Positions 2,140 through 22,748 of a stretch of 39,565 nucleotides of DNA are shown here, piece by piece. Position 1 is the first letter of the stretch, and the number at the start of each line of letters is the position of its first letter. The DNA is from Melioribacter sp. (GTDB lineage: Bacteria; Bacteroidota; Ignavibacteria; Ignavibacteriales; Melioribacteraceae): positions 55,516 to 95,080 of the forward strand of contig PMDS01000087.1 in the NCBI GenBank assembly GCA_003155655.1. The letters run 5' to 3'. Made by a program: the position numbers and the translations under genes. The notes under the pieces are model-generated. The model saw only the letters and a list, made by a program, of their open reading frames with translations, searched no databases and was not told where the DNA came from.

Positions 2140-2229
2140 ATGAAAAACAATCAAATTACATACCGATCACAAATCAATAAACTTTGGTGGTGGTGGAATA
2201 ACTATACTCATGTAAATTCAGTGACATAA
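2140..2229 (+). CDS. trpL: trp operon leader peptide with four tandem Trp codons
   Basis: A 29-codon frame begins ATG at 2140 and stops TAA at 2227-2229. Codons 16-19 (2185-2196) are TGG TGG TGG TGG, within KLWWWWNNY. It lies between a promoter and an intrinsic terminator directly upstream of trpE, the exact layout of a ribosome-mediated trp attenuator. The peptide itself has no expected function after synthesis: its translation rate reports charged tRNA-Trp. A ribosome held at the Trp codons leaves 2217-2224 free, while a ribosome at the stop codon covers it. No Shine-Dalgarno sequence can fit between the inferred transcript start and the ATG, so the leader is probably translated from a nearly leaderless mRNA. 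Four adjacent Trp codons in such a short frame are very unlikely by chance. Confidence 0.9.
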   Translation: MKNNQITYRSQINKLWWWWNNYTHVNSVT

Positions 2230-2278
2230 ACTAATTAATATAGAATTTCAATCAGAACCCTTCTTAGTTATCACTGAG
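2217..2278 (+). promoter_or_regulatory. Candidate antiterminator pairing of the trp attenuator
   Basis: TTCAGTGA (2217-2224), just before the leader stop codon, is complementary to TCACTGAG (2271-2278), which spans the loop and the upper 3' arm of the terminator: eight pairs including one U-G. Its 5' partner starts about 20 bases after the last Trp codon, the right distance to stay exposed when a ribosome stalls there and to be covered when it reaches the stop codon. A second possible pairing, ATAACTA (2198-2204) with TAGTTAT (2265-2271), uses the 5' arm of the terminator but lies too close to the Trp codons to be free under a stalled ribosome. Confidence 0.55.
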
Positions 2279-2289
2279 AAGGGTTTTTT
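2256..2289 (+). terminator. Intrinsic terminator of the trp attenuator
   Basis: AACCCTTCTTAGT (2256-2268) pairs with ACTGAGAAGGGTT (2273-2285) around a four-base loop, giving a 13-bp stem with one U-G pair, followed directly by a run of six T (2284-2289). It lies 27 bases after the leader stop codon and 21 bases before the trpE start, so it would stop transcription before the structural genes unless the antiterminator forms. Confidence 0.9.
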
Positions 2290-2310
2290 GTTATATAAGG
2301 ATTAACTTTT

Positions 2311-10038: not shown

Positions 10039-10653
10039 TCATTTTACATTGTGTCTTTCCACAAGCTTATTTACAACTTCTTCCAGATTTATATCCTGTT
10101 CAGACAGCATTACAAGCAGGTGATAAATTAAATCGGCGGTTTCGTTTATTATTTCTTTTTTATCCCTGTTCTTTGCAGCTATAACTGTTTCAATAGCTTC
10201 TTCGCCGACTTTTTGAATTATTCTATTGGCGCCTTCCTTGAATAATTTTGTCGTATATGAATTTTCAGGTAAATTTTTCTTTCGTTCGTTAATTAATTCA
10301 TTCAATTGTTTTAGAAAATTTATATTCGTTTTCTCAATATCGAAGCATGAGTAAGCGCCGGTATGACAGGTTGGTCCTTCTGGTTTTGCAATTATTAATA
10401 ATGTATCATTATCACAATCACTTTTTATATCGATAACATTCAAGTAATTGCCCGAAGTTTCACCTTTAATCCAATAAGTTTGTCTAGTTCTGCTGAAGAA
10501 TGTAACGCGTTTTGTCTCTAAAGTCTTTTCATATGCTTCTTTATTCATAAATCCTAACATCAATACCTGGTTTGTATTAAAGTCTATAATAATAGCAGGA
10601 ATCAATCCTCCCAGTTTTTCAAAATTAAGTTCTTCAGTTTTAATCTTAATCAT
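10039..10653 (-). CDS. hisI: Bifunctional phosphoribosyl-AMP cyclohydrolase / phosphoribosyl-ATP pyrophosphatase
   Basis: A HisIE fusion of 204 residues performing steps 2 and 3 of histidine synthesis. The HisI domain (about 1-115) shows MLGFMNKEAYEKTL, FFSRTRQTYWIKGE, the metal ligands in SDCDNDTLL and the zinc cysteines in GPTCHTGAYSCF. The HisE domain (about 118-204) is helical and contains the acidic motif KVGEEAIETVIAA and NETADLIYHLLVML that bind magnesium and pyrophosphate. It is the last gene of the his operon. Unlike the other junctions, it is separated from hisF by 106 bases of duplicated sequence. The start at 10653 has GGAG about 14 bases upstream. Confidence 0.95.
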   Translation of the reverse strand: MIKIKTEELNFEKLGGLIPAIIIDFNTNQVLMLGFMNKEAYEKTLETKRVTFFSRTRQTYWIKGETSGNYLNVIDIKSDCDNDTLLIIAKPEGPTCHTGAYSCFDIEKTNINFLKQLNELINERKKNLPENSYTTKLFKEGANRIIQKVGEEAIETVIAAKNRDKKEIINETADLIYHLLVMLSEQDINLEEVVNKLVERHNVK

Positions 10654-10787
10654 AATCTTACTCTAACTCCATTCGACTTTAGTTAATTCTTCAACTCCTT
10701 TATCTCCAGTTCTTCAATTATTATCTTAATCATAATCTTACTCTTAATCTTACTCTCAATCATAATCTTACTCTAACTCCATTAGAC
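10654..10787 (-). repeat. Partial tandem duplication of the hisF-hisI junction
   Basis: On the minus strand the end of hisF reads AATGGAGTTAGAGTAAGATT followed by ATGATT (10781-10756). The same bases recur at 10673-10648, where they form the bases before and including the hisI start codon. Between the copies a 16-codon frame (ATG 10733 to TAA 10683) begins MIKIIIEELEIKELKN, a decayed version of the HisI start MIKIKTEELNFEKL. The layout is hisF end, false hisI start, second hisF end, true hisI start, i.e. an old tandem duplication of about 100 bases. Confidence 0.75.
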
Positions 10788-11512
10788 CTTAAATATTGCT
10801 TTAAATCCTTTATAGCTAATTCTTCATAATGGAAAAGGCTGGCGGCAAGGCAGGCATCCACACCAACATTAAACGCATCCAGAAAATGTTCTTTAGTTCC
10901 AGCCCCTCCGGACGCTATAACAGGAATTGTCACACTTTCTACAACTTGTTTCAAAAATCTAAGATCATAACCGGCTTTGGTTCCGTCGTGATCCATAGAA
11001 GTTAACAGAATTTCTCCGGCGCCAAGTTCATTAACTTTTTTACACCAGTATAATCCTTCAATTTCAGTCTCTTCCTTTCCCCCTTTTACAAAAATTTTTT
11101 TAATACCATTCACTGCCTTAATATCAATTGCAGCAACTATTGCCTGACTGCCAAACCTATTTGCAGCCTGAGTAATTAAATCCGGATTTTTAACAATTGA
11201 AGAGTTAAGGGATACTTTATCAGCGCCTGCTCTCAATAATGCTTCAATATCATCAAGTTCAGAAATACCTCCTCCAACAGTGAAGGGAATCCTGATAACA
11301 CTTGCAACGTCCTTAACAAGTTCCACCAGGGTTTTTCTTTTTTCTAATGTCGCCGTGATGTCTAAAAAAACAAGCTCGTCTGCTCCTTCGTCGTAATATC
11401 TTTGTGCAAGTTCTACAGCTGAACCTGCATGACGCAGTTCAACGAAATTAATTCCTTTTACAACTTGACCGTCCTTAACATCCAGGCAGGGAATAATTCT
11501 TTTACTTACCAA
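10760..11512 (-). CDS. hisF: Imidazole glycerol phosphate synthase, cyclase subunit
   Basis: The 250-residue barrel uses ammonia from HisH to convert PRFAR to imidazole glycerol phosphate and AICAR. The catalytic aspartates are Asp11 (IIPCLDVKDG) and Asp130 (VAAIDIK), and the phosphate-binding ends TVGGGIS and IASGGAG are intact. The start codon is TTG at 11512; it gives the family-standard N-terminus MVSKRIIPCLD, so I keep it. The gene overlaps hisA by 11 bases. The C-terminus VRVRL lies inside the duplicated junction sequence. Confidence 0.95.
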   Translation of the reverse strand: MVSKRIIPCLDVKDGQVVKGINFVELRHAGSAVELAQRYYDEGADELVFLDITATLEKRKTLVELVKDVASVIRIPFTVGGGISELDDIEALLRAGADKVSLNSSIVKNPDLITQAANRFGSQAIVAAIDIKAVNGIKKIFVKGGKEETEIEGLYWCKKVNELGAGEILLTSMDHDGTKAGYDLRFLKQVVESVTIPVIASGGAGTKEHFLDAFNVGVDACLAASLFHYEELAIKDLKQYLRSNGVRVRL

Positions 11513-12221
11513 ATCTTGAAAGCTCCTTTAGATCTATTTTATTTTCGTAAATTGCCTTACCAACAATTGCAGCACTGCATTTCATGTCATCCAGTTCATT
11601 AAGATCATTCATATCGCGAATACCGCCGGAAGCAATGATGTTTATTTCCGGGAAAAATTCTTTTAGCCCGCGGTAAAGATGCAGATTTGGTCCTTCCATC
11701 ATCCCGTCTTTATCAATATCAGTAATTAAAAAATTATTTAAACCATATCCTTTGCATTGAGTAATTAAAGCGCTTATTTCAAGATTGGAATTCTCACTCC
11801 ATCCTTTTACAATAATTTCTCCTTTTTTAGTATCCGCAGCAATTACAATATTGTCTTTCGAAAATTTTTCAACTATCATTTCAAATTCGGGTCTATTTAC
11901 TAACGGAAGCGACCCCATAACTATTCTGTCAACTTTATTGAAAAATAAATTTGCGGCATCTTCAAATTTTCTTATTCCCCCTCCAAATTCAATCTTAATT
12001 TTTGTTTTATTTTTTATTTCTTCCAAAATTTTTAACGTTGAAATATTTCCCTTCTTGGATCCTGAAAGGTCAACTATATGTACCCATTCAAAGCCGAAGT
12101 CTTCGTAAATTTTAGCTTGATCAAGTGGATGTTCGGAATAGCTTTTTGCTGTTGCGAAATCACCTTTCTTAAGACGGACTACCTTTCCGTCTAAAATATC
12201 AATTGCAGGTATAATTAGCAT
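11502..12221 (-). CDS. hisA: ProFAR isomerase (phosphoribosylformimino-AICAR-P isomerase)
   Basis: A 239-residue TIM barrel paralogous to HisF that isomerises ProFAR to PRFAR, step 4 of the pathway. The N-terminus MLIIPAIDILDGKVVRLKKG carries the catalytic Asp8; the second catalytic Asp is in VIAADTKKG; phosphate-binding segments are EFGGGIRK and IASGGIRD. It overlaps hisH by 7 bases and hisF by 11. No sign that it replaces TrpF: a dedicated trpF is present in the same window. Confidence 0.95.
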   Translation of the reverse strand: MLIIPAIDILDGKVVRLKKGDFATAKSYSEHPLDQAKIYEDFGFEWVHIVDLSGSKKGNISTLKILEEIKNKTKIKIEFGGGIRKFEDAANLFFNKVDRIVMGSLPLVNRPEFEMIVEKFSKDNIVIAADTKKGEIIVKGWSENSNLEISALITQCKGYGLNNFLITDIDKDGMMEGPNLHLYRGLKEFFPEINIIASGGIRDMNDLNELDDMKCSAAIVGKAIYENKIDLKELSRFGK

Positions 12222-12802
12222 TTTTCTATAAAGTTTTTCATTAGTAAAGTTCCGGCCTGACCGGATTTTTCAGGGTGAAATTGTACACCGTAAAAATTAT
12301 CTTTTTCCATTGAGGAGCAAAAATCAATGTCATAGTTACAAACCGAGGTTGCATATTCATTTATGGGTACATAATAAGAATTTGCAAAATAAAAATATTC
12401 ACCTTCCTGTATCCCGTCAAAAAGTTTTGACTGCTTCGTATATTTTAACTGGTTCCAACCCATATGGGGTACTTTTACTTTTGTATCATCAAATTTTTCT
12501 GTTGATCCGGGTAAAATTCCTAAACTTACAACATCTCCTTCCTTGGATTTTTGACAAAACAACTGCATGCCAAGACATATTCCAAGAAGAGGTTTTTTAA
12601 TAATATGCAGCAGGTTAAATAAGTTTGTCATGTGAAGCCGGCGGACTGCATATGCTGCTTCTCCAACACCGGGAAATATTATTTTCTCCGATTTACAAAT
12701 ATCAGATTCACAGTATGTAATCTTATAATCGCAATTTAAATCTTTTAACACGTTTGCCACTGAAGCAGTGTTGCCGGCGCCATAATCAATTAGAGCAATC
12801 AT
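12215..12802 (-). CDS. hisH: Imidazole glycerol phosphate synthase, glutaminase subunit
   Basis: A class I glutamine amidotransferase of 195 residues that feeds ammonia into HisF. The triad is visible as Cys76 in LLGICLGMQ and His176/Glu178 in GVQFHPEKSG. The N-terminus MIALIDYGAGN and the PGVGEA segment (44-49) are typical of HisH rather than TrpG or PabA. The gene sits directly between hisB and hisA, as in many his operons, with 4- and 7-base overlaps. Confidence 0.95.
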   Translation of the reverse strand: MIALIDYGAGNTASVANVLKDLNCDYKITYCESDICKSEKIIFPGVGEAAYAVRRLHMTNLFNLLHIIKKPLLGICLGMQLFCQKSKEGDVVSLGILPGSTEKFDDTKVKVPHMGWNQLKYTKQSKLFDGIQEGEYFYFANSYYVPINEYATSVCNYDIDFCSSMEKDNFYGVQFHPEKSGQAGTLLMKNFIEKC

Positions 12803-13404
12803 ATTACTCCTTTGGTTGAAGGCAGACTGCCTTTATTCCGTGTATCGTATTTCAACGCACTATTAAGCGCCCTGGCAAACGCCTTGAATATTGCTTCTGC
12901 TTTATGATGATCGTTTTCACCTTCAGCTTTTATATGTATGTTAGCACGCATACCTAAAGATAGTCCCCTAAAAAATTCCTTAAAAAGTTCTGTCGGAAAA
13001 TCACCAATCTTTTCCCTTTTGAACTTGCAGGTAAAAGATAAATACGGTCTCCCGCCAAGATCAATTGCACATTGCGCTAATGCGTCATCCATTGGGAGCA
13101 TAAATCCAAAACGCTCAATCGATTTCCTATTTCCTAAGGCATTGCTTATACCTTCACCTAATGCAATTCCAACATCTTCAACAGTATGGTGCTCATCAAT
13201 GTGTAAATCACCTTTAACCGATATTTCCATATTTATATTCGAATGTTTTGCCAATTGTTCAAGCATGTGGTCAAAAAAACCAACTCCGGTTTTTATCTTG
13301 TTTTTACCATTCCCATCAAGATCCAATTTAATTTTTATGTCGGTTTCTTTAGTCTTTCTTCTGTAATCGGCTTTACGTACTATTTTACTTTTTTCTTTGT
13401 TCAT
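12799..13404 (-). CDS. hisB: Imidazoleglycerol-phosphate dehydratase, monofunctional
   Basis: Dehydrates imidazole glycerol phosphate to imidazole acetol phosphate (step 6). The two repeated metal-binding blocks are clear: FFDHMLEQLAKHS with DEHHTVEDVGIALG, and the later NDHHKAEAIFKAFARALN. The MDDALAQCAIDLGGRP segment and the C-terminal STKG are also present. At 201 residues it is only the dehydratase; the N-terminal HAD histidinol-phosphatase domain found in many Bacteroidota HisB proteins is absent. It lies 85 bases after hisC, the widest gap inside this operon apart from the duplicated hisF-hisI spacer. Confidence 0.95.
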   Translation of the reverse strand: MNKEKSKIVRKADYRRKTKETDIKIKLDLDGNGKNKIKTGVGFFDHMLEQLAKHSNINMEISVKGDLHIDEHHTVEDVGIALGEGISNALGNRKSIERFGFMLPMDDALAQCAIDLGGRPYLSFTCKFKREKIGDFPTELFKEFFRGLSLGMRANIHIKAEGENDHHKAEAIFKAFARALNSALKYDTRNKGSLPSTKGVI

Positions 13405-13489
13405 TTAATCTCTGCCTCAAAATTAATATAATACTACCTCTTGTATTATTTGCAAAATCTAAAATAGTAATTATCCATTAATCAAAAAA

Positions 13490-14539
13490 TTATCCTGCTA
13501 ATATATCTTTCAATCCGTTTAGAAATTTAATATTCTCTTCCCTGGTTCCTACAGAAACCCTTAATGAATTTTTTACCTGGCTGCTTCTATCACGAATAAC
13601 AATTCCTATCTCAATTAATTTAGTGTATACTGAAGATGGATTTTCGCACTCAAATAATATGTAATTAGTTTCAGATGGATATACTTTCGTAATTCCCGGC
13701 ATGGAATTTAATTCATCTTTAATAAATTTCCTCTCATTTTTAATGGCTTGTACAAATTTATCTTTCTGCTCATAATTTTTAAGCGCATGTAATATAACCT
13801 CAGATGTTAATTTATTAAGGTTATAAGGCATCTTAATTTTATAGAGGAGATTGATTATTTCTTTTGACGAAGCGCAGAAACCACACCGCACACCAGCCAA
13901 TCCCCATGCCTTTGAAAAAGTCCTTGTTACAATTAGATTTGGAACTCTCCCCACCTTGGCAATCAAAGAATCCTGTGAAGCAAAATCTATATAAGCCTCG
14001 TCTACAAATACAATTCCGTTAAACTTTTCGGCTAACTCCATAATTGATTTTGGTTCTATTAAGTTCCCTGTTGGATTATTAGGCGAGCATATAAATATTA
14101 CTTTAGTATTTGTTGTAATTGCTTTGTAAACCTTTTCAAGATCAATTTGGAAATTATTATTTAAAGGAAGCGATATAGTGGAAACATCATTAATATCACA
14201 GACAACTTTATACATTCCGTAAGTGGGTTCCAAAGTAATTACATTATCAATTTTGGGTTCACAGAATATCCTTATAGTTAAATCGATAATTTCATCCGAA
14301 CCTACTCCTATGAACAAATTTTCTTTTCGCATACTTAAATAAGAAGCAAGTTCTTCCCGCAACTTATTGTGAAACGGATCGGGATAACGGTTCAAGCCAA
14401 TATTCCATTCATCATTTACTACTGGACCAAAACTATTCTCATTTGCATCAAGAAGAATACCTGTTAAATGGTCTTCTCTTGCAGAGGTATACGGCTTAAG
14501 TTGGAGAATGTTTTTCCTTACGATAGATTCAATTTTCAT
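13490..14539 (-). CDS. hisC: Histidinol-phosphate aminotransferase
   Basis: A PLP-dependent class I/II aminotransferase of 349 residues converting imidazole acetol phosphate to histidinol phosphate with glutamate. The substrate and cofactor motifs are LDANENSFG, GVGSDEIID, SPNNPTGN (152-159), VDEAYIDF (179-186) and the PLP lysine Lys210 in TRTFSKAWGLAGVRCG. C-terminal SLRVSVGTREEN supplies the carboxylate-binding arginine. It overlaps hisD by 11 bases. Broad-specificity aromatic aminotransferases look similar, but operon position supports HisC. Confidence 0.95.
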   Translation of the reverse strand: MKIESIVRKNILQLKPYTSAREDHLTGILLDANENSFGPVVNDEWNIGLNRYPDPFHNKLREELASYLSMRKENLFIGVGSDEIIDLTIRIFCEPKIDNVITLEPTYGMYKVVCDINDVSTISLPLNNNFQIDLEKVYKAITTNTKVIFICSPNNPTGNLIEPKSIMELAEKFNGIVFVDEAYIDFASQDSLIAKVGRVPNLIVTRTFSKAWGLAGVRCGFCASSKEIINLLYKIKMPYNLNKLTSEVILHALKNYEQKDKFVQAIKNERKFIKDELNSMPGITKVYPSETNYILFECENPSSVYTKLIEIGIVIRDRSSQVKNSLRVSVGTREENIKFLNGLKDILAG

Positions 14540-15818
14540 TCTTTATCCTGATTTTAATTGCGTTTGCATGTGCGTCCAATTTTTCAAGCGAGGCAAATTC
14601 AATTACCGTTGATGAAATATTATTCAGCCCCTTTCTGCTTACATTTTGGAATGTAATTGTTTTCATAAAGGATTCTACAGAAATCCCGCCCATTGTTTTT
14701 GCGTAACCGTAAGTTGGAAGTGAGTGATTTGTACCTGATGCATAATCTCCGATGCTTTCAGCGGAAAAACTCCCGAGGAAAACAGAGCCTGCATTAACTA
14801 TCTTTTTTATATACTGCTCCGGCTTGTCAACATTAAGTATTAAATGTTCAGGTGCATAGTTGTTACTCATTTCTATTGCTTCATCAATTGATTTTACAAC
14901 TATTATAAATGAATTTTTCAGTGCTCCATCAATAAACTTTCCGCGAGATAAATATTTTTTCTGCTTCTCAATTTCACCAAGTACTTCTTTCGAAAGCTTT
15001 GCGCTTGTTGTAAGCAATATTACCTGTGAATCAACTCCATGTTCTGCCTGTGAGAGCAAATCAGCGGCGATATAAGATTTATTCGCGTTTTCATCTGCAA
15101 TAACTAAAACTTCGCTTGGACCGGCAGGCATATCAATTGCACATCCTTGCGGGTCAATACTTACCAAAGTCTTAGCGGCAGTAACGTATTGATTACCGGG
15201 ACCAAAAATTTTATCTATTTTTTTAATTGATTTATCTCCGTAAGCCATTAAAGCTACTCCCTGGGCTCCTCCAATTTTGTAGAGCTCTTCAATGCAGCAG
15301 ATTTTTGCCGCGAATAATACCGCGGGATTAATTTTGTTTTTAACAGGTGAAAGGGCAGCAACTCTTTTACATCCGGCAATCATTGCAGGTATTCCTAGCA
15401 TAAGCATTGTAGACGGCAATACGGCAGTTCCGCTGGGTATATAAAGACCAACATTTTCAATTGCCCGGTATTCCCTGGAACATTTGATTCCCGGCATTGT
15501 TTTAACTGTATATTCATTCGGGTATTGCCGGACATGAAATTTTTCAATGTTTTTGGCGGCGGTAATAATTGCATTTTTAGATTCACTGCTTAATTGTTTC
15601 TCGGCGTTTTCAAATTCACTTTTCTTTACAAGTAAATCTTTCCCATTAAAACCGTCAAATTTTCTTGAATACTTAAGAGCAGATTTAAGCCCGTTCTTTT
15701 TAACATCAACAACTATTGGCTTCACTATTTTTATGACTTTTTCATTATCAATTGCAGGTCGTGAAAATAGGGTCATTAACTTTGCCTGACTTATTTTTTT
15801 TGTTGAATAAATTTTCAT
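14529..15818 (-). CDS. hisD: Histidinol dehydrogenase
   Basis: Performs the last two oxidations from histidinol to histidine with NAD and zinc. The 429-residue length is standard. Seen in order: LYIPSGTAVLPSTMLMLGIP, KIFGPGNQYVTAAK, IDMPAGPSEVLVIAD, SQAEHGVDSQVILLT with a metal-site region, NYAPEHLIL with the catalytic Glu-His pair, and GDYASGTNHSLPT with the zinc-binding aspartate and histidine near it. It overlaps hisG by four bases (ATGA type) and hisC by 11. Confidence 0.96.
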   Translation of the reverse strand: MKIYSTKKISQAKLMTLFSRPAIDNEKVIKIVKPIVVDVKKNGLKSALKYSRKFDGFNGKDLLVKKSEFENAEKQLSSESKNAIITAAKNIEKFHVRQYPNEYTVKTMPGIKCSREYRAIENVGLYIPSGTAVLPSTMLMLGIPAMIAGCKRVAALSPVKNKINPAVLFAAKICCIEELYKIGGAQGVALMAYGDKSIKKIDKIFGPGNQYVTAAKTLVSIDPQGCAIDMPAGPSEVLVIADENANKSYIAADLLSQAEHGVDSQVILLTTSAKLSKEVLGEIEKQKKYLSRGKFIDGALKNSFIIVVKSIDEAIEMSNNYAPEHLILNVDKPEQYIKKIVNAGSVFLGSFSAESIGDYASGTNHSLPTYGYAKTMGGISVESFMKTITFQNVSRKGLNNISSTVIEFASLEKLDAHANAIKIRIKNEN

Positions 15819-16684
15819 AATATCATATTCTCTATTGGTACAAGTAATAATCCGGATGCGCCTGCTTCATGCAGGTCTTTTTGTATTTCCCAGAACATAT
15901 CAGAAGGAATTACTGCATGTACTGCAAGCATAGATTCATCTGCCAGTGGAAGTATTGTTGGGCTTTTTAATGACGGTAAAACTTCCCTTACACGTTCTAA
16001 AGAATCTTTTGGTACGTTCATCATTAAATACTTTGAGTTCTTTGCATTAAGTGCAGATTCAATTCTTACAATCAGATTTTTTAACTTGGAATATTTATCT
16101 GAATCTTTTTCAATATTTTTATTCCCGATCAGGACTGCTTCCGAATCAAACACTGTCATATACTTTTTCAATTTATTCAATTTTAATGTATTACCTGTTG
16201 ACACTATATCACAAATATAATCTGCAACACCAAGGGAAGGAGCAATCTCAACCGAACCGCTAATTTGAATAATTTTCGCTTGAATTTTATTATCGCGGAA
16301 ATAATTAGCTAGTATCTTAGGATAAGATGTTGCTACCCGCTTTCCGTTAATCTCCTGAATTTCCTTAATATCTTCATTTTCGGGTCCTGCAAGCATCAGT
16401 CTGCATTTGCCAAAGCCAAGTTTTTTAATCATTTCTACATCAGCTTCTTTCTCAATAACTACATCTTCACCAACAATTCCAACGTCTGCTACACCATCCT
16501 GAACATATTCAGGGATATCGTCATCGCGTAGAAATAATAAATCAAGTTCATAATTACGCGTTGTAACAATCAGCCTGTTCGAATAATTTTCAATATCCAG
16601 CCCGCAGGTGCGTAAAAGCTGTAATGATTTTTCGGACAGTCTTCCGCTCTTCTGGATTGCTAATTTCAAATTTCCATTTGCCAT
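15815..16684 (-). CDS. hisG: ATP phosphoribosyltransferase, long form
   Basis: Catalyses the first step of histidine synthesis, ATP plus PRPP to phosphoribosyl-ATP. At 289 residues it is the long form: a catalytic periplasmic-binding-like pair of domains (GVADVGIVGEDVV near 64-76, DYICDIVSTGNTLK with the PRPP-binding loop near 155) and an ACT-like regulatory C-terminus (about 215-289) that binds histidine. HisZ is therefore not needed, and feedback inhibition is expected in addition to attenuation. ATG at 16684 has a strong AAAGGAGC ribosome binding site, placed between the attenuator terminator and the gene. Confidence 0.95.
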   Translation of the reverse strand: MANGNLKLAIQKSGRLSEKSLQLLRTCGLDIENYSNRLIVTTRNYELDLLFLRDDDIPEYVQDGVADVGIVGEDVVIEKEADVEMIKKLGFGKCRLMLAGPENEDIKEIQEINGKRVATSYPKILANYFRDNKIQAKIIQISGSVEIAPSLGVADYICDIVSTGNTLKLNKLKKYMTVFDSEAVLIGNKNIEKDSDKYSKLKNLIVRIESALNAKNSKYLMMNVPKDSLERVREVLPSLKSPTILPLADESMLAVHAVIPSDMFWEIQKDLHEAGASGLLLVPIENMIL

Positions 16685-16701
16685 ATTTGCTCCTTTAAAA
16701 C

Positions 16702-16723
16702 AAAAAATCCGGCATTGCCGGAT
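16702..16723 (-). terminator. Intrinsic terminator of the his attenuator
   Basis: Read on the minus strand, ATCCGGC (16723-16717) and GCCGGAT (16713-16707) form a 7-bp stem with a three-base loop, followed by a T run (16707-16702). It ends 17 bases before the hisG start. Its 5' arm can pair instead with GCCGGAT at 16768-16762 inside the leader peptide gene. Confidence 0.88.
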
Positions 16724-16768
16724 GTAAGTTTAATCAATTTTTTAGAAAATTAATTATAGCGATCCGGC
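16717..16768 (-). promoter_or_regulatory. Antiterminator pairing of the his attenuator
   Basis: GCCGGAT at 16768-16762 (minus strand; codons 18-20 of the leader) is a perfect 7-base complement of the 5' arm of the terminator, ATCCGGC at 16723-16717. It begins 15 bases after the last His codon, so it is free when a ribosome stalls on His codons and covered when the ribosome reaches the stop codon. The GCCGGAT sequence is also identical to the 3' arm of the terminator, so the two hairpins compete for the same partner. Confidence 0.8.
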
Positions 16769-16819
16769 TACCTCTGCAGGTGAATGATGGTGATGAAGAT
16801 GGTGGATTGCTCTGTTCAT
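16754..16819 (-). CDS. hisL: his operon leader peptide with six His codons
   Basis: A 21-codon frame from ATG (16819-16817) to TAA (16756-16754) encodes MNRAIHHLHHHHSPAEV and four more residues. Codons 6-7 and 9-12 are His (16804-16784), interrupted by one Leu. It lies between a promoter-like sequence and an intrinsic terminator upstream of hisG, the classic his attenuator layout. Translation speed through the His codons would report charged tRNA-His; the peptide product is not expected to have its own role. It is the counterpart of the Trp-rich leader ahead of the trp operon in this window. No Shine-Dalgarno sequence is obvious in the roughly 20-base 5' UTR. Confidence 0.9.
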   Translation of the reverse strand: MNRAIHHLHHHHSPAEVAGSL

Positions 16820-16845
16820 ATATATAATTATTAATTTTCTTGTTG

Positions 16846-16876
16846 TAAATATAATTTTTTAGGCTTAATTGTCAAA
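16846..16876 (-). promoter_or_regulatory. Probable his operon promoter
   Basis: On the minus strand TTTGACA (16876-16870) is followed after 16 bases by TATATTTA (16853-16846), one mismatch from the Bacteroidota -7 element TAnnTTTG with the expected TTTG-type -33 element. Transcription would start near 16840, about 20 bases before the leader-peptide ATG. Confidence 0.6.
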
Positions 16877-16968: not shown

Positions 16969-17808
16969 ATGCATAATTGTTTTTTTGTATCTGACCTGCA
17001 CGGCAGAGTTGAGCGTTATGAAAAACTTTTCTCAATAATTACGAAGGAGATTCCCCGCGCTGTATTTCTTGGCGGTGACTTACTTCCTCATAGTTACGCA
17101 AATAAAAATTTCATTTTAGATTACCTAATTCCAAATTTTGCTACCGTCAAGAAGCAGCTTAAGGAAAATTATCCGAGAATTTTTATTATCCTTGGAAACG
17201 ATGATGCCCGGTCGGAAGAGCAAAACATTATTACCGGTGAACACGAAGCAATTTGGGAATACATTCATTATAAATCCGCTGAATTGGACGGAAAGAAAAT
17301 ATTTGGTTATTCATTTACCCCGCCGTCACCTTTTCTTCTTAAAGACTGGGAAAAATATGACGTTTCACGATATGTTGAACCCGGCTGTATTTCACCGGAA
17401 GAAGGTAAAAGAACATTTGAAATTACAGATCAAGAAAAAAAATATTCAACTATAAAAAATGATCTTGAAGATCTGGTTGATGATGAAAATATTAATGATG
17501 CGATATTTCTTTTTCATGGACCCCCTTATCAAACAAACCTGGATAGAGCTGCATTAGATGGCGTTATGTACGATCATACTCCGGCTGATGTACATGTGGG
17601 AAGTATTGCAATTAAAAGATTTATTGAACAAAAACAGCCGTGTATTACGCTGCATGGGCATATCCATGAATCAGCAAGGTTGATGGGAACATGGAAAGAT
17701 AAAATTGGAAAGACTTTCTGCTTCAACGCTGCACATGACGGGCAAGAATTGGCTGCTGTAATATTTAACTTCAGCAATCCTGAAGAGGCAAAGAGAATAT
17801 TAATCTGA
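16969..17808 (+). CDS. Calcineurin-like metallophosphoesterase
   Basis: A cytoplasmic 279-residue phosphoesterase with a complete two-metal site: Asp9 and His11 in FVSDLHGR, Asp37 in FLGGDLLP, Asn77-Asp78 in ILGNDDA, His183 in LFHGPPYQ, and His229-Gly-His231 with His233 in LHGHIHES. There is no signal peptide. The substrate is unknown; the family includes nucleotide, phosphodiester and protein phosphatases. It runs divergently from the his operon and converges on the PEP/pyruvate-binding pair, overlapping its last gene by 9 bases at the 3' ends, so a shared operon is impossible but the arrangement may be conserved. ATG at 16969 has only a weak GGA upstream. Confidence 0.85.
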   Translation: MHNCFFVSDLHGRVERYEKLFSIITKEIPRAVFLGGDLLPHSYANKNFILDYLIPNFATVKKQLKENYPRIFIILGNDDARSEEQNIITGEHEAIWEYIHYKSAELDGKKIFGYSFTPPSPFLLKDWEKYDVSRYVEPGCISPEEGKRTFEITDQEKKYSTIKNDLEDLVDDENINDAIFLFHGPPYQTNLDRAALDGVMYDHTPADVHVGSIAIKRFIEQKQPCITLHGHIHESARLMGTWKDKIGKTFCFNAAHDGQELAAVIFNFSNPEEAKRILI

Positions 17809-20800
17809 TGAACCTGAATTTTTAATTTTCAATTTGCGCGCAGCATCCGTAACCGCATTTATCTTAACGGCAAAACTTGTTTTATTTTTAATATCATCAT
17901 CTGTAACATAATGAACATCTAGCAAGCCCTGTGCTTTATAACCGGTGCGCAAATAATTCATTTCACTTAATGCTAAACTCCATCCTTCAAACCAAAGGCT
18001 TAATTCTTTTACATTGCATTTTTTCTTATCAATATGAACAATCAGATCGATATCACTGCCCGGACCTGAGAAAGCATTTTTTGTACTCCCAAAAACGTAA
18101 ATTCCGTTTACATTGAATCTTTCTGCATCCAGCTCTGAAGCAATTTTTTCAGCCATTTTCATTCTCCACCGCCAGTGGTCTACTGAATGATGTTCAGTAT
18201 TTTCTTTAACTTCACGTTCCGGAATTACTTCTGAAGAAGGCTCTGAAAAAATTCCTATGCCTTTCTCTAGTTCTGCGTTCATAAGTATCTTAAGTACCTT
18301 ACCACCGGTTGAAGCCGGTACATCAATAACTTTTATTGTATCTTCCAGATAATTATACTCATGAACGAGTTCAGCAAATATATTTTTAGAATTGTTAAAG
18401 AAATTATCGTTAAAGAAATTTCCCTCATCATCGGGATAAAGCGGCAGGTACCTGATGCCTGCTTCAACTAAATCCTGGAAAAAATGCGTCCCAAAAGATA
18501 GATCAGGTACATAATTTCCCTTTTTCCTGGCAATTTCAATAAGCATTGCAGTGTTATTTATATCGGAATAAGTAACATTTACACCTAGTTTAATATCACC
18601 ACGGCTTCCCCACCTTCCCGGTCCCATTAAAATAAAAGCGCGTTTAGGTAGGGTCTTGTTTAACTTTCCTACAGCATGTCCCACATTCAGCAATTTTGTT
18701 ATTTCTGAAATCTCGGTATACTTCTGAGGATCAACATAAACAATGTGGGTGATATCGGGAACTCTTCCATTTGAAATAAATTTTGTTGCGCTAAAAAGAG
18801 TTTTATCAGCAGCAATATCTTTGGGTATCGGATCTGCATTAGATTCGCCTGAAAAACTTTGAGGACGGCATTGCAGCAAATAAAGATCCTTTCCGTCAAA
18901 TGCAAATTCAAGATCAACCGGGGATTTAATTTTAGATTGCAATGTTTTTAATATTTCATCAATCCTTTTTAGAAAATTGGTTTTCGAAATTAATCCATCA
19001 AAAGTAACAATGAATTCTTTCTCTTTGTCGTCAAGATCCCAGCTCATTGGCTGGCGAAGCATTGTTCCATCCAATACAGAAAATATTTGAACTGCATTTG
19101 GATATTCCATCCCGGATTCTTGAAGAACCCTGGTGATTGGTATTGTTTCAAACTCATTCGTTTCTAAATTAATAACATCAATTTTTTTAGGAGAATATCT
19201 TCTTAATTCCTCAGGAGAAACATTAACTCTTAAATTCGGCTGACCGGGAGAAACAAGAACCGGGTAATCATCACTAAGCCTGTCTACAGCGCGCGTGCCT
19301 AACCCGGGTACAATTCTTAAGAGTCCATCTTCCCGTTTGATTCTTGGAGACCATCGGAATTCATTATTGCTGAAAGCAACTCCTGCAAATGCCGGGAACC
19401 AGTATTTACCAACTTTAGTCCCAACAACTTGTTGAATCATCACTCCCATTTCTTCATGGAAATCTAATAGTCCGCGCTCTGCCCTGTACTCAATAGGATC
19501 CGGACTAAAAGTTGAAGCATAAACTTCTGCAATTGCGTCCATTAATGCTGCCATCTTTTGCTGCTTTGAACCCTGGTTGGCAAGGAATAAACTTTTATAT
19601 TTCCCGGAAAATGTTGCACCCATCTGGTCTTCCAATAGTGAAGAACTTCTTACAACGAGAGGTCCATCACCAAGATCATCAAGCGCTACTGAAAGTCCCT
19701 TTAATATGTCCGATGGGAAATCTGAATTCTTAAATAGCTGTACAACGTGCGGATATTCAATTCTTACTTCATCAATATCTTTATATTTCTGTTCAAGAAC
19801 TTCCTCAAGATTATTATGCTGCATAAAATAAAGAACTCCGTCTGATGTAATGTACCAGGTTTTTGGAGTTTTAACATCCTTTAAAATATCATTATGCTCG
19901 GCTTCTTTTTGCAAAATATGAGCAGCTAAAAATAATCCGGCGCTTTTACCTCCAAGCTTGCCATGGCTGCCGGCAGGGAAAATCATCTTATCAATTAATT
20001 TATAGAAGTCGGTAAGCTTAACATATTCTTTGGCAACACTAATGTAATCGAGATGTTCAGTGAAAAATCTTCTAAGCAGGGAAACGCGCAAACCTTTTAC
20101 CGTTGAAGGCGGGAGTTCAAATTTTTCCGGTGCAATATGATAATATCTTCTAATTGCATCTGCAATTTCCGTCAATGATGTATCTTGATTATCTACAACT
20201 TTAACAAGAGTGCTTGATTTATCTTCTTGAATCCATTTTTGAATTCTTGCAAGAATTATTTCATCCGGTAAATTTTCATCTACGAGTCTTAGTATTGTTT
20301 CAACATATTGATCATAATCCATAATTTTAGACACTTTTGTGGGTCTGTTGTCGTCATAATATTCATCAGTTTCAGTTCCACTGTCTTTGTGCACAAGACT
20401 TGTATGCTTCATTAACATTTCAGCTTCTTCCACACCTTTCCAGCATAAAAGATGAAGAAGCTTTCTCATCAGACTCATAAACAAATTTGGATCTGTTTTG
20501 CGTATCATATCAAGAACTATCCGCCATTCCCCTTTCTTGCTCCCTCCCACCTGTTCTCTTACAGTTTTAAATTCATTGAATACGGTTTTCAATTTCTGAT
20601 GAAGTATAAAATGTCCAAGGCGGTCGGCAATCGTATCCAGTAATTTTTTTTCTTCCTTTAAAAAAGGGCCAAGTACATTGCTTGAAAAAGGCACTTCTTC
20701 TAAATAATAAACTGATATATGCCCGACAATTTTTTCCTGCACAATTATTTCAGATTTTATTGACCATTTAGTCTCTTCAAAATCACTTGTCTGGTAAACA

Positions 20801-21006
20801 ATATCTCCATAAACCAATTTTGCTTTGCAGATATTAGGAAACTGCCATGCAGGTGGTATTGCGTTAATTACAGTGTGGAATGCCTGCCTCAAAGAAATTT
20901 CCGAGCGGTTTAAACTGTCTTCAATCATATAAAGGCAGTTTAATTCCTTTGCACGTTCCTGAAGTTCAAATACTAAATTATCAATTGGTTTATTTTCATT
21001 TAACAT
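17800..21006 (-). CDS. PEP/pyruvate-binding ATP-grasp protein with C-terminal nucleotidyltransferase domain
   Basis: A 1068-residue cytoplasmic protein of several parts. Residues ~1-140 resemble a GAF-like sensor domain. A helical region follows to ~340. The PPDK/PEP synthase N-terminal ATP-grasp domain runs ~345-735, with GGKSAG (352-357), RSSSLLED (from Arg453) and the late LLQCRPQS. A region with GPGRWGS (795-801) and FGTHFFQ (His841) is shared with the next gene. The end is a minimal nucleotidyltransferase domain: Gly973-Ser974 and Asp985-x-Asp987 in the pattern GS-x10-DxD. The swivelling phosphohistidine domain and the TIM-barrel of true PEP synthase are missing, so it should not make PEP. 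Substrate unknown. It starts 7 bases inside the end of the upstream paralogue. Confidence 0.8.
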   Translation of the reverse strand: MLNENKPIDNLVFELQERAKELNCLYMIEDSLNRSEISLRQAFHTVINAIPPAWQFPNICKAKLVYGDIVYQTSDFEETKWSIKSEIIVQEKIVGHISVYYLEEVPFSSNVLGPFLKEEKKLLDTIADRLGHFILHQKLKTVFNEFKTVREQVGGSKKGEWRIVLDMIRKTDPNLFMSLMRKLLHLLCWKGVEEAEMLMKHTSLVHKDSGTETDEYYDDNRPTKVSKIMDYDQYVETILRLVDENLPDEIILARIQKWIQEDKSSTLVKVVDNQDTSLTEIADAIRRYYHIAPEKFELPPSTVKGLRVSLLRRFFTEHLDYISVAKEYVKLTDFYKLIDKMIFPAGSHGKLGGKSAGLFLAAHILQKEAEHNDILKDVKTPKTWYITSDGVLYFMQHNNLEEVLEQKYKDIDEVRIEYPHVVQLFKNSDFPSDILKGLSVALDDLGDGPLVVRSSSLLEDQMGATFSGKYKSLFLANQGSKQQKMAALMDAIAEVYASTFSPDPIEYRAERGLLDFHEEMGVMIQQVVGTKVGKYWFPAFAGVAFSNNEFRWSPRIKREDGLLRIVPGLGTRAVDRLSDDYPVLVSPGQPNLRVNVSPEELRRYSPKKIDVINLETNEFETIPITRVLQESGMEYPNAVQIFSVLDGTMLRQPMSWDLDDKEKEFIVTFDGLISKTNFLKRIDEILKTLQSKIKSPVDLEFAFDGKDLYLLQCRPQSFSGESNADPIPKDIAADKTLFSATKFISNGRVPDITHIVYVDPQKYTEISEITKLLNVGHAVGKLNKTLPKRAFILMGPGRWGSRGDIKLGVNVTYSDINNTAMLIEIARKKGNYVPDLSFGTHFFQDLVEAGIRYLPLYPDDEGNFFNDNFFNNSKNIFAELVHEYNYLEDTIKVIDVPASTGGKVLKILMNAELEKGIGIFSEPSSEVIPEREVKENTEHHSVDHWRWRMKMAEKIASELDAERFNVNGIYVFGSTKNAFSGPGSDIDLIVHIDKKKCNVKELSLWFEGWSLALSEMNYLRTGYKAQGLLDVHYVTDDDIKNKTSFAVKINAVTDAARKLKIKNSGSSD

Positions 21007-22748
21007 TTTTTAATTACTCCGCGGCTTTTTCGTCCATCAACTTTGATTTTAAGTGGCTGAGCTAATTTAATATGCTTTACAAAATTCATTTCAACAACAA
21101 TATCCTGCAAATTCAGCCAATTCCAATCAATTGCAAACTCTCCATCAAAAGTTATTGAAAAATAACTAACATTGAAACTGGTAAGATTATGAAAGAAATG
21201 TGAACCCTGGCTTAGTTCAACATTTATATCAAATAATGTTGATTCAATAATTACACTGGCGCCACCAATTTGACCCCACTTTACCGGGATACCAAGCCAT
21301 GGATCAGAACTTCCCCACCTTCCAAAACCAATTAGAAGATATGGCAGTTTTTCTTTAACCAGGCTTCTATTTATAGAATCAATCTCGCTAGCAATTTTAT
21401 GAGTGTCTTTTTTATCGAACGTCTCAGGTTTCAAAAAAACAACATCATAAATATTTTCAATAACCCCGTTCCCCATAACCAATTTTGAAGCAGCTAAAAC
21501 ATTTTTACCATATAATTCTTTTTCATCCAGTTCAACCTTTTCACCAAAAACTGCAGCCGGACGCACCTGCAAAAATCCGAAATGAAGTTTTTGACTGTCT
21601 CTTGGTATTGTAACGGCAAATTCAATTTCAACAGGCCCTTTTAATTCTTCTTCATATACTTCAAGAAGTTTTTTTATCAGATCATTGAAATGAAATTCAT
21701 TCATAGTTAAAAGCCGGCAAAAATTAATAACCCGGGCACCGCTTTCAGCAACACCCATCACAATTCTGTCTGATGGAGCATCGTAAGTTGAAGCAATATA
21801 TTTCAGTGTATCATCGTAATCAGCATCACTCAAATTATATTGCGTCATATATTCTTCTTCTTTGGTCGCATCATATTCAATAGAATGGCTCATATTTACA
21901 GCCCAAAAATTTGTCTGGGTATTATTGAGCAATGCATTAGTATCGCCAAAAGGAGGAACAGATTTTGGGAATGCCGGGCTATAATTCCAGACTAATCCTC
22001 CGTCGACAATTGTTTTACCAAGTCCAAGGGCAAGACCAACAGCTCCCTGTTCCGGTTTTGCTTTTCCGTGAGGAAAGAAATTATATGAACGCGCAACTCC
22101 CGAGAAGTTTGGATAAAACCTATCATTAAACTTCTGTCCTGCTATTTCTTGAATTATTACAGCCATTTTTTCTTCTTTAATTGAATGAGAAGAAACTTTG
22201 AAATAGTCTTTTGATACTTTTAAAAATGTTGAGACATATACAAATTTAATTGCTTCAATAAGTTTTAAAAATCTTTCATCAGTACTGGTTTGGTTATTTG
22301 GAATCATTTTAGTAGCATAAATGCCGGAAAATGGTTCATTTTTGGCGTCTTCCAACATACTTGAAGAACGTACGGCCAAAGGAACTCTCACGTTTTCAAT
22401 CAGACCACGCAAATCACCTAAAATTTCTGAGGGCATATCTGCCTGCAGAAAGGCAAGTATTATATCTTCGTCCCGTTCATCAGAATAAGCAATTTCAAAA
22501 AGATTATTCCTTTGCAAAAAAGCATCAAACAAACCGGTGCGTAAAACGACCAACCTGGGAATGTTTATTATAACATCAGGAAATTCTTTAGACTCAATTT
22601 TTTCTTTTATAATTTTATCTGCAAGAGCAAGCCCGCTTGCTTTTCCTCCTAATGCTCCCTCTCCAATCCACGTAAACTCTTCCCTGGACTCAAGGAAGTC
22701 CCTGTTAAAGCCGGAAATGATATTGTTATTATTATCAGATGTTTTCAT
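21000..22748 (-). CDS. PEP/pyruvate-binding ATP-grasp protein
   Basis: A 582-residue protein with the PPDK/PEP synthase ATP-grasp domain: GGKASG (34-39), the long conserved RSSSMLED block from Arg127 with FSGIY, VIIQEIAG, and FGFLQVRP near 416. The C-terminal ~120 residues carry GFGRWGSSDPWLGIPV from 474 and QGSHFFHNL around His517, the same motifs as in the downstream 1068-residue paralogue. No GGxTxH phosphohistidine motif and no TIM-barrel domain are present. It is the first gene of the pair, and the 7-base overlap implies coupled translation and perhaps a heteromeric complex. Often annotated as PEP synthase or pyruvate-phosphate dikinase in this group; the missing domains argue against that activity. 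Confidence 0.8.
   Translation of the reverse strand: MKTSDNNNNIISGFNRDFLESREEFTWIGEGALGGKASGLALADKIIKEKIESKEFPDVIINIPRLVVLRTGLFDAFLQRNNLFEIAYSDERDEDIILAFLQADMPSEILGDLRGLIENVRVPLAVRSSSMLEDAKNEPFSGIYATKMIPNNQTSTDERFLKLIEAIKFVYVSTFLKVSKDYFKVSSHSIKEEKMAVIIQEIAGQKFNDRFYPNFSGVARSYNFFPHGKAKPEQGAVGLALGLGKTIVDGGLVWNYSPAFPKSVPPFGDTNALLNNTQTNFWAVNMSHSIEYDATKEEEYMTQYNLSDADYDDTLKYIASTYDAPSDRIVMGVAESGARVINFCRLLTMNEFHFNDLIKKLLEVYEEELKGPVEIEFAVTIPRDSQKLHFGFLQVRPAAVFGEKVELDEKELYGKNVLAASKLVMGNGVIENIYDVVFLKPETFDKKDTHKIASEIDSINRSLVKEKLPYLLIGFGRWGSSDPWLGIPVKWGQIGGASVIIESTLFDINVELSQGSHFFHNLTSFNVSYFSITFDGEFAIDWNWLNLQDIVVEMNFVKHIKLAQPLKIKVDGRKSRGVIKKC

Follow-up and report, generated by a model that had tools for sequence, protein, structure and literature searches.

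The window, by which we mean the whole 39,565-nt stretch of Melioribacter sp. DNA analysed here, carries an eight-gene his operon on the minus strand with hisG as its first gene (start at 16684). A short leader ORF begins 135 nt upstream of hisG on the same strand, and re-reading of the coordinates placed all elements of the candidate his attenuator on the minus strand of the window (Table 1). A first-pass annotation, made from the letters alone, had described an HHLHHHH leader with six His codons in a 21-codon frame, followed by a 7-bp terminator. Both are present, the leader at 16819-16754 and the terminator at 16723-16707, where ATCCGGC-AAT-GCCGGAT-TTTTTGTTTT forms a stem of seven pairs (five of them G-C) that lies 22 nt upstream of the hisG ATG at 16684. 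The annotation had also pointed to the same GCCGGAT in leader codons 18-20 and in the terminator 3' arm, with ATCCGGC as partner for both, and the sequence bears this out: the seven bases at 16768-16762 are identical to the 3' arm, so both copies can pair with ATCCGGC.

The folding energy of the leader RNA gave a z score of -3.56, with equal stability in 1 of 200 shuffles. In 35 of the 56 loci compared below, the 60 nt preceding the leader start contain TAnnTTTG, which we take to be the Bacteroidota-type promoter consensus; the shuffle mean was 4.5. By eye, no evident Shine-Dalgarno sequence precedes the leader ATG. Elsewhere on the minus strand of the window (17800-22748), two neighbouring large ORFs show weak likeness, far under curated cut-offs, to parts of phosphoenolpyruvate synthase-like proteins.

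Table 1. Features of the candidate his attenuator and of the operon behind it, in window coordinates.
Feature	Position	Strand	Details
Probable promoter	16846..16875	-	TTG, 19 nt, TATATTTA; TAnnTTTG with one mismatch; 11/12 against the sigma-70 consensus
Leader ORF	16754..16819	-	MNRAIHHLHHHHSPAEVAGSL, 21 codons, 6 His; ATG at 16819, stop ends at 16754
Regulatory codons HHLHHHH	16784..16804	-	Codons 6-12, six His
Region 1, AGCAATCC	16804..16811	-	Possible partner of GGATCGCT (16758-16765), 7/8 pairs, by eye
Region 2, GCCGGAT	16762..16768	-	Codons 18-20; predicted antiterminator 5' strand
Region 3, ATCCGGC	16717..16723	-	Terminator 5' arm, common to predicted antiterminator and terminator
Region 4, GCCGGAT	16707..16713	-	Terminator 3' arm
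Terminator U-tract	16697..16706	-	Read from sequence
AAAGGAG, probable Shine-Dalgarno of hisG	16690..16696	-	Read from sequence
hisG (ATP phosphoribosyltransferase)	15815..16684	-	Pfam HisG and HisG_C; first gene of the operon
Rest of his operon, 7 genes	10039..15818	-	Order in the next two rows
After hisG		-	Histidinol dehydrogenase, aminotransferase (hisC position), imidazoleglycerol-phosphate dehydratase, glutamine amidotransferase (hisH position)
Operon end		-	Two His_biosynth proteins (hisA and hisF positions), then hisIE

Loci and rules used in the comparison

The main set consisted of 56 distinct hisG loci, window included, drawn from 50 family genomes and six further named records after eight of 64 hisG loci had been removed as duplicates (L041-L045, L049, L053, L062). 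Among 79 family genomes, 26 gave no hisG match and 53 did; of the latter, G026 was cut at a contig edge, and G002 and G003 fall outside the 56. Named hisG relatives, among them Melioribacter and other Ignavibacteriales assemblies, were 63-83% identical (14 loci) and point to Melioribacteraceae (Ignavibacteria) as the family of the window. A further set of 36 loci comprised 34 from other families of the order and two from the family; four of the 36 duplicate main-set species, and the named records L046, L050, L051 and L054 recur in this set by leader sequence. The order-set tally omitted L183 and L184 and the class set omitted L208 (73 nt upstream), and the class and phylum sets were hand-chosen, rather than random, among the matches listed. 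NCBI treats Ignavibacteriota as a separate phylum, whereas the grouping of the genome search has a wider single phylum, presumably Bacteroidota. In the relatives hisG only was examined; the controlled operon itself was read in the window, where it consists of histidine biosynthesis genes.

A leader was counted as His-rich when an ATG ORF had at least three His in eight codons, and a terminator as strict when a perfect stem of at least five pairs, at least four of them G-C, was accompanied by a U-tract; dinucleotide shuffles served as controls. When no threshold was applied, a best hairpin was returned for all 56 loci. The leader ORF of L068 was re-assigned by hand.

A His-rich leader and a terminator are conserved upstream of hisG

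A His-rich ATG ORF was present in 54 of the 56 upstream regions, against 0.55 in shuffles, and 47 regions had an ATG ORF with at least four His in eight codons, against 0.00 in shuffles. For none of seven other residues did the same ORF test exceed 5 of 56 loci. The ATG count stands at 54 because L025 and L055 have GTG-start ORFs only; a leader with at least three His was assigned in all 56 loci, with ATG starts in 52 and GTG starts in four. In the further set, 35 of 36 loci had a His-rich ORF, L179 being the exception.

Strict terminators were equally frequent in the main set: 54 of 56 loci had one in the interval from the last His codon to hisG (shuffle mean 1.1), with L046 and L050 failing the rule. 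In the further set, 30 of 36 loci had one at most 130 nt from hisG; it was missing from L089, L090, L092, L094, L179 and L182. Within the window's own genome (4.6 Mb, 137 contigs), four consecutive His codons were matched 28 times. Six of the 24 other distinct His4 tracts fell within short ATG ORFs, none of these six was followed by a strict terminator within 150 nt, and none of the 24 was another His leader.

A separate observation concerns the terminator loop of some distant relatives. In L182, L230, L231, L235 and L241 the loop of the hisG terminator (e.g. CTGAGTATATCA) shows 8-13 nt of complementarity to an element further downstream, which starts 20-26 nt before the hisG start. Loop matches of at least 8 occurred in 6 of 48 loci with a scored terminator, the one in L215 being placed elsewhere, and in none of the 56 main-set loci. 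The arrangement could be a pseudoknot or an inverted DNA site.

The predicted antiterminator covaries with the terminator arm

In every locus, the sequence running from the His codons to the terminator was tested for pairing with the terminator 5' arm of that locus. Own arms gave a mean 2:3 duplex of -11.58 and swapped arms one of -9.79, none of 2000 permutations equalling the own arms; shuffling region 2 gave -6.54. When the set was reduced to a single locus for each genus label (n=35), the means were -11.56 and -9.73 (0 of 10000 as good). These shuffle and swap controls remove relatedness only in part. At the level of single loci, 2:3 complementarity exceeded 95% of own shuffles in only 39 of 56, and the weakest pairings, above -7 kcal/mol, were those of L012, L036, L052 and L064.

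Region 2 was then anchored by a leave-one-out profile blind to its own partner. The anchored words paired in 77% of cells, compared with 24-48% when slid and 70% when partners were swapped whole, the last value being high owing to the near-invariance of the CCGG core. In 39 cells both sides had changed, where 17.4 such cells were expected (0 of 1000 permutations). Extra pair types amounted to 15 against an expected 12.6, a result matched by 34 of 1000 permutations. Clear covarying pairs include GTGTCGG/CCGACAC and GCGTCGG/CCGACGC, together with ATCGGGGTTA/TAACCCCGAT in genus g2. The predicted antiterminator has a strand in common with the terminator, and covariation backs this arrangement. That antiterminator and terminator compete for one strand had been proposed in the first-pass annotation, which named loss of the His codons or of the pairing between region 2 and the terminator arm in relatives as evidence against its reading; the His codons are conserved well beyond the shuffled expectation, and the pairing is kept and covaries, own arms outperforming swapped ones in every permutation.

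Two other hairpins were considered. The 1:2 pairing was stronger with own than with swapped partners (-7.25 vs -5.43, 0 of 2000 permutations), but just 14 of the 56 loci, the window not among them, surpassed 95% of their shuffles. In the window it was not significant (rank 0.46; leader fold z -0.62), and in single relatives it looks good; regions 1 and 2 may form a pause hairpin that encloses the His codons. The window also has an 11-bp AU hairpin that juxtaposes regions 2 and 3 (linker z -5.43). As a general part of the leader this nested hairpin was rejected, with a mean z of -0.12 over the 56 loci.

Spacing and modelled folding states suit ribosome-mediated attenuation

The region 2 core starts exactly 19 nt past the last His codon in 27 of the 56 loci and 16-22 nt past it in 47, the window value being 16 nt; this distance suits a ribosome stalled on the His codons. 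The core was found in all three reading frames, and in nine loci the leader stop precedes it, which indicates that the RNA rather than the peptide is constrained. We modelled ribosome positions with assumed values of 10 nt covered beyond the A site and a 28-nt footprint. With the ribosome stalled and region 4 not yet made, 2:3 formed in 54 of 56 loci (L016 and L069 failing), and with the ribosome at the leader stop, 3:4 formed in all 56, the core being covered in 54 under the assumed footprint. When the stalled ribosome was modelled on full-length RNA at equilibrium, the terminator was more stable in 48 of 56 loci, so capture of region 3 by region 2 would have to be kinetic and not an equilibrium outcome.

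We interpret these features, with high confidence, as a his-operon attenuator of the classical, ribosome-mediated transcriptional type, and the his attenuator reading given in the first-pass annotation is supported. Comparative sequence analysis establishes the leader ORF with its His codons, the terminator, the covarying 2:3 pairing and the spacing. With ample His-tRNA, the ribosome would reach the leader stop and cover region 2, leaving region 3 to pair with region 4, and RNA polymerase would terminate before hisG. With scarce His-tRNA, the ribosome would stall on the His codons and leave region 2 free; region 2 would then capture region 3 as it emerges, pre-empting the terminator and allowing the operon to be transcribed.

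Other accounts of the same elements were weighed against this attenuator. The 2:3 pairing might act on hisG translation or through Rho instead of on intrinsic termination, an idea to which the short distance between the terminator end and the hisG ATG (22 nt) lends something, as the hairpin sits near the ribosome binding site. Against it, the strict G-C rich stem with its U-tract recurs in 54 of 56 loci where shuffles gave 1.1, and in the window the probable Shine-Dalgarno sequence lies outside the hairpin; we regard this account as improbable. Still less probable, in our judgement, is that the His-rich ORF encodes a functional small peptide, such as a metal-binding one, with the terminator incidental to it. 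His runs can bind metals, and the ORF is found in all 56 loci. By eye, however, the peptides have in common no more than the His run and a C-terminal Ala-Gly, and the latter is accounted for by the GCCGG RNA word, which is also kept in other frames and beyond the ORF. A strict terminator follows the ORF in nearly every locus (54 of 56). As the loci were picked by hisG, the position of the ORF before that gene is no independent evidence against a peptide, but the 24 other His4 tracts of the genome offered no combination of leader and terminator.

The terminator might also serve a different sensor, namely a T-box, a known riboswitch or a leader bound by a protein. In other bacteria his genes are under control of this sort, with a T-box mentioned upstream of hisS in Chlorobia (PMC2965389), and a repressor site is present in other orders of the class (see below). 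The repressor-type site is nonetheless absent from all 56 main-set loci, no Rfam family reached its gathering score in the window, where permissive matches were far below it, and the run of His codons is itself the signature of sensing by a ribosome; we give this account almost no credence. In the window, RF00514, the His leader, had no covariance-model match at the gathering score, and the sole amino-acid leader in the permissive list was Thr_leader, at 13.9 bits against 55. T-boxes, riboswitches and known Rfam leaders were likewise rejected for the trp and ilv leaders, neither of which had a match, as the his leader of the window had none.

Leaders of other amino-acid operons

Finding trp and his attenuators within one window had led the first-pass annotation to suggest attenuation as a general means of controlling the amino-acid operons of this lineage, and to propose a scan of other operons of the same genome. 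Five own-genome loci were looked at: his, trp, ilv-leu, the prephenate dehydratase gene and the aspartokinase gene. The suggestion held in part. All 30 family loci examined, taken from the 77 genomes that gave any match, carried a counterpart of the window's trp leader (MKNNQITYRSQINKLWWWWNNYTHVNSVT) with at least three Trp in eight codons. Among 30 ilv-leu loci examined, taken from 42 matching genomes, 28 had, as a raw count, an Ile/Leu/Val-rich leader; no standard intrinsic terminator was seen by eye after it. Before the prephenate dehydratase gene (phe), no combination of leader and terminator was seen by eye in the own genome, and the aspartokinase ORF (thr locus) has only 82 nt of contig upstream of it.

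The trp leader of the window (2140-2290, plus strand) contains WWWW. Its region 2, TCAGTGA at the leader end, pairs with the loop and apical half of the terminator 3' arm, unlike that of his, which pairs with the 5' arm; over 30 loci this pairing was -13.21 with own and -10.97 with swapped partners (0 of 1000).

The ilv-leu cluster on contig 122 of the own genome comprises ilvD, ilvB, ilvN, ilvC, leuB, leuA, a leuC-like gene, one gene left unassigned at the cut-off applied and a citramalate synthase gene. Its leader, upstream of ilvD (L086, 3905-4167), encodes a peptide of 52 aa. After the leader comes a long-range helix, GGTTAATCCC/GGGGTTGACC, whose two strands change together in relatives (GGTCGATCCC/GGGGTCGACC). 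A swap comparison of this helix gave 9.7 against 6.8 pairs and is biased because the words were chosen for complementarity. The ilv-leu leader possibly works by Rho-dependent or translational attenuation; if true, its mechanism would be an unusual variant.

A TrpR-family repressor probably replaces the attenuator in other orders of the class

Outside the order the picture was uneven. His-rich leaders preceded hisG in only 4 of 21 same-class loci (shuffle expectation 0.45), none being found in the 12 loci L194, L200 and L203-L212 (in L208, 73 nt upstream only), and in 21 of 27 hand-chosen loci of other classes of the wider phylum used by the genome search (shuffle expectation 1.00). In 11 of 22 same-class loci (L194, L200, L203-L207, L209-L212) the gene directly upstream of hisG encodes look-alike proteins, and the three scanned, from L194, L205 and L212, all match Pfam Trp_repressor. 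A TTTAnnnnnnTAAA site lay at most 60 nt before hisG in 8 of 22 same-class loci; it was found before hisG in none of the 56 main-set, 36 order-set or 27 other-class loci. This site resembles the published operator of HisR, a TrpR-family protein whose consensus is given as cacTTTAnnnnnnTAAAgtg (PMC9413887). In other orders of the class a HisR-type repressor probably takes the place that attenuation has in Ignavibacteriales, which would account for the few His leaders in the class outside the order, and the two devices seem to replace each other before hisG.

Taken jointly, these loci are compatible with a wider reading that we offer tentatively, leaning slightly towards doubt: leader-peptide attenuation may be an old means by which amino-acid operons are generally controlled, both throughout Ignavibacteria and in much of the wider Bacteroidota. 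A single genome would then hold several architectures, and other orders of the class would have a TrpR-family repressor in place of his attenuation. Under this reading, region 2 of his would copy arm 4 and capture arm 3, region 2 of trp would capture the loop and apical half of arm 4, and ilv-leu would rely on a conserved long-range helix without an intrinsic terminator.

Discussion

The putative his attenuator is a known kind of switch, found here in a little-studied group for which we came upon no description. Among the literature matches listed, none described a his attenuator in Ignavibacteria; an earlier prediction is possible in Lopatovskaya et al. 2010, reportedly a broad comparative survey.

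Among the closest in design is the gamma-proteobacterial his operon leader, RF00514, which likewise has a leader peptide with His codons, an intrinsic terminator and a mutually exclusive antiterminator before the his operon (PMC9413887); the window differs in having no match to that family, and a 1:2 pause hairpin is not clearly conserved here. In the same source, his attenuators were predicted in three Firmicutes lineages, and RF00514 had no match in Firmicutes (PMC9413887). These resemble ours in their short leader with three to five consecutive His codons, their attenuator and antiterminator and their comparative prediction, and differ in phylum, the likeness being one of description and not of sequence (PMC9413887).

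Nearer relatives also offer parallels. Strong clues for leader-peptide attenuation before amino-acid operons were noted in Flavobacterium psychrophilum, and conserved 5' elements lie upstream of hisG and pheA in Flavobacteriaceae (PMC9723704). The hisG element concerns the same gene in a related group, but not in Ignavibacteria, and is likened to ours by description only (PMC9723704). The trp, ilv and leuS leader-peptide attenuators of Actinobacteria share the principle and the comparative prediction, and the ilv mechanism is unclear there too, whereas phylum and genes are different (PMC1262725). In bacilli, leaders with His codons outside Proteobacteria precede hisZ and hisS*; these control hisZ/hisS paralogues in Firmicutes rather than a biosynthetic operon (PMC2965389). 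That 2010 paper states that leader-peptide systems had earlier been shown, before its bacilli case, only in Proteobacteria and Actinobacteria (PMC2965389). Further literature cited as known background includes PMC4833913, PMC2864571 and PMC7366714.

The window leader is undetected by the current Rfam library, and the his leader elements provide testable sites. When histidine runs low, the short His-rich leader gene, acting with a competing RNA hairpin, very likely turns the his genes on. A his attenuator supported by covariation and kept through an order of Ignavibacteria, together with the leaders in 21 of 27 loci of other classes, would show the breadth of this mechanism.
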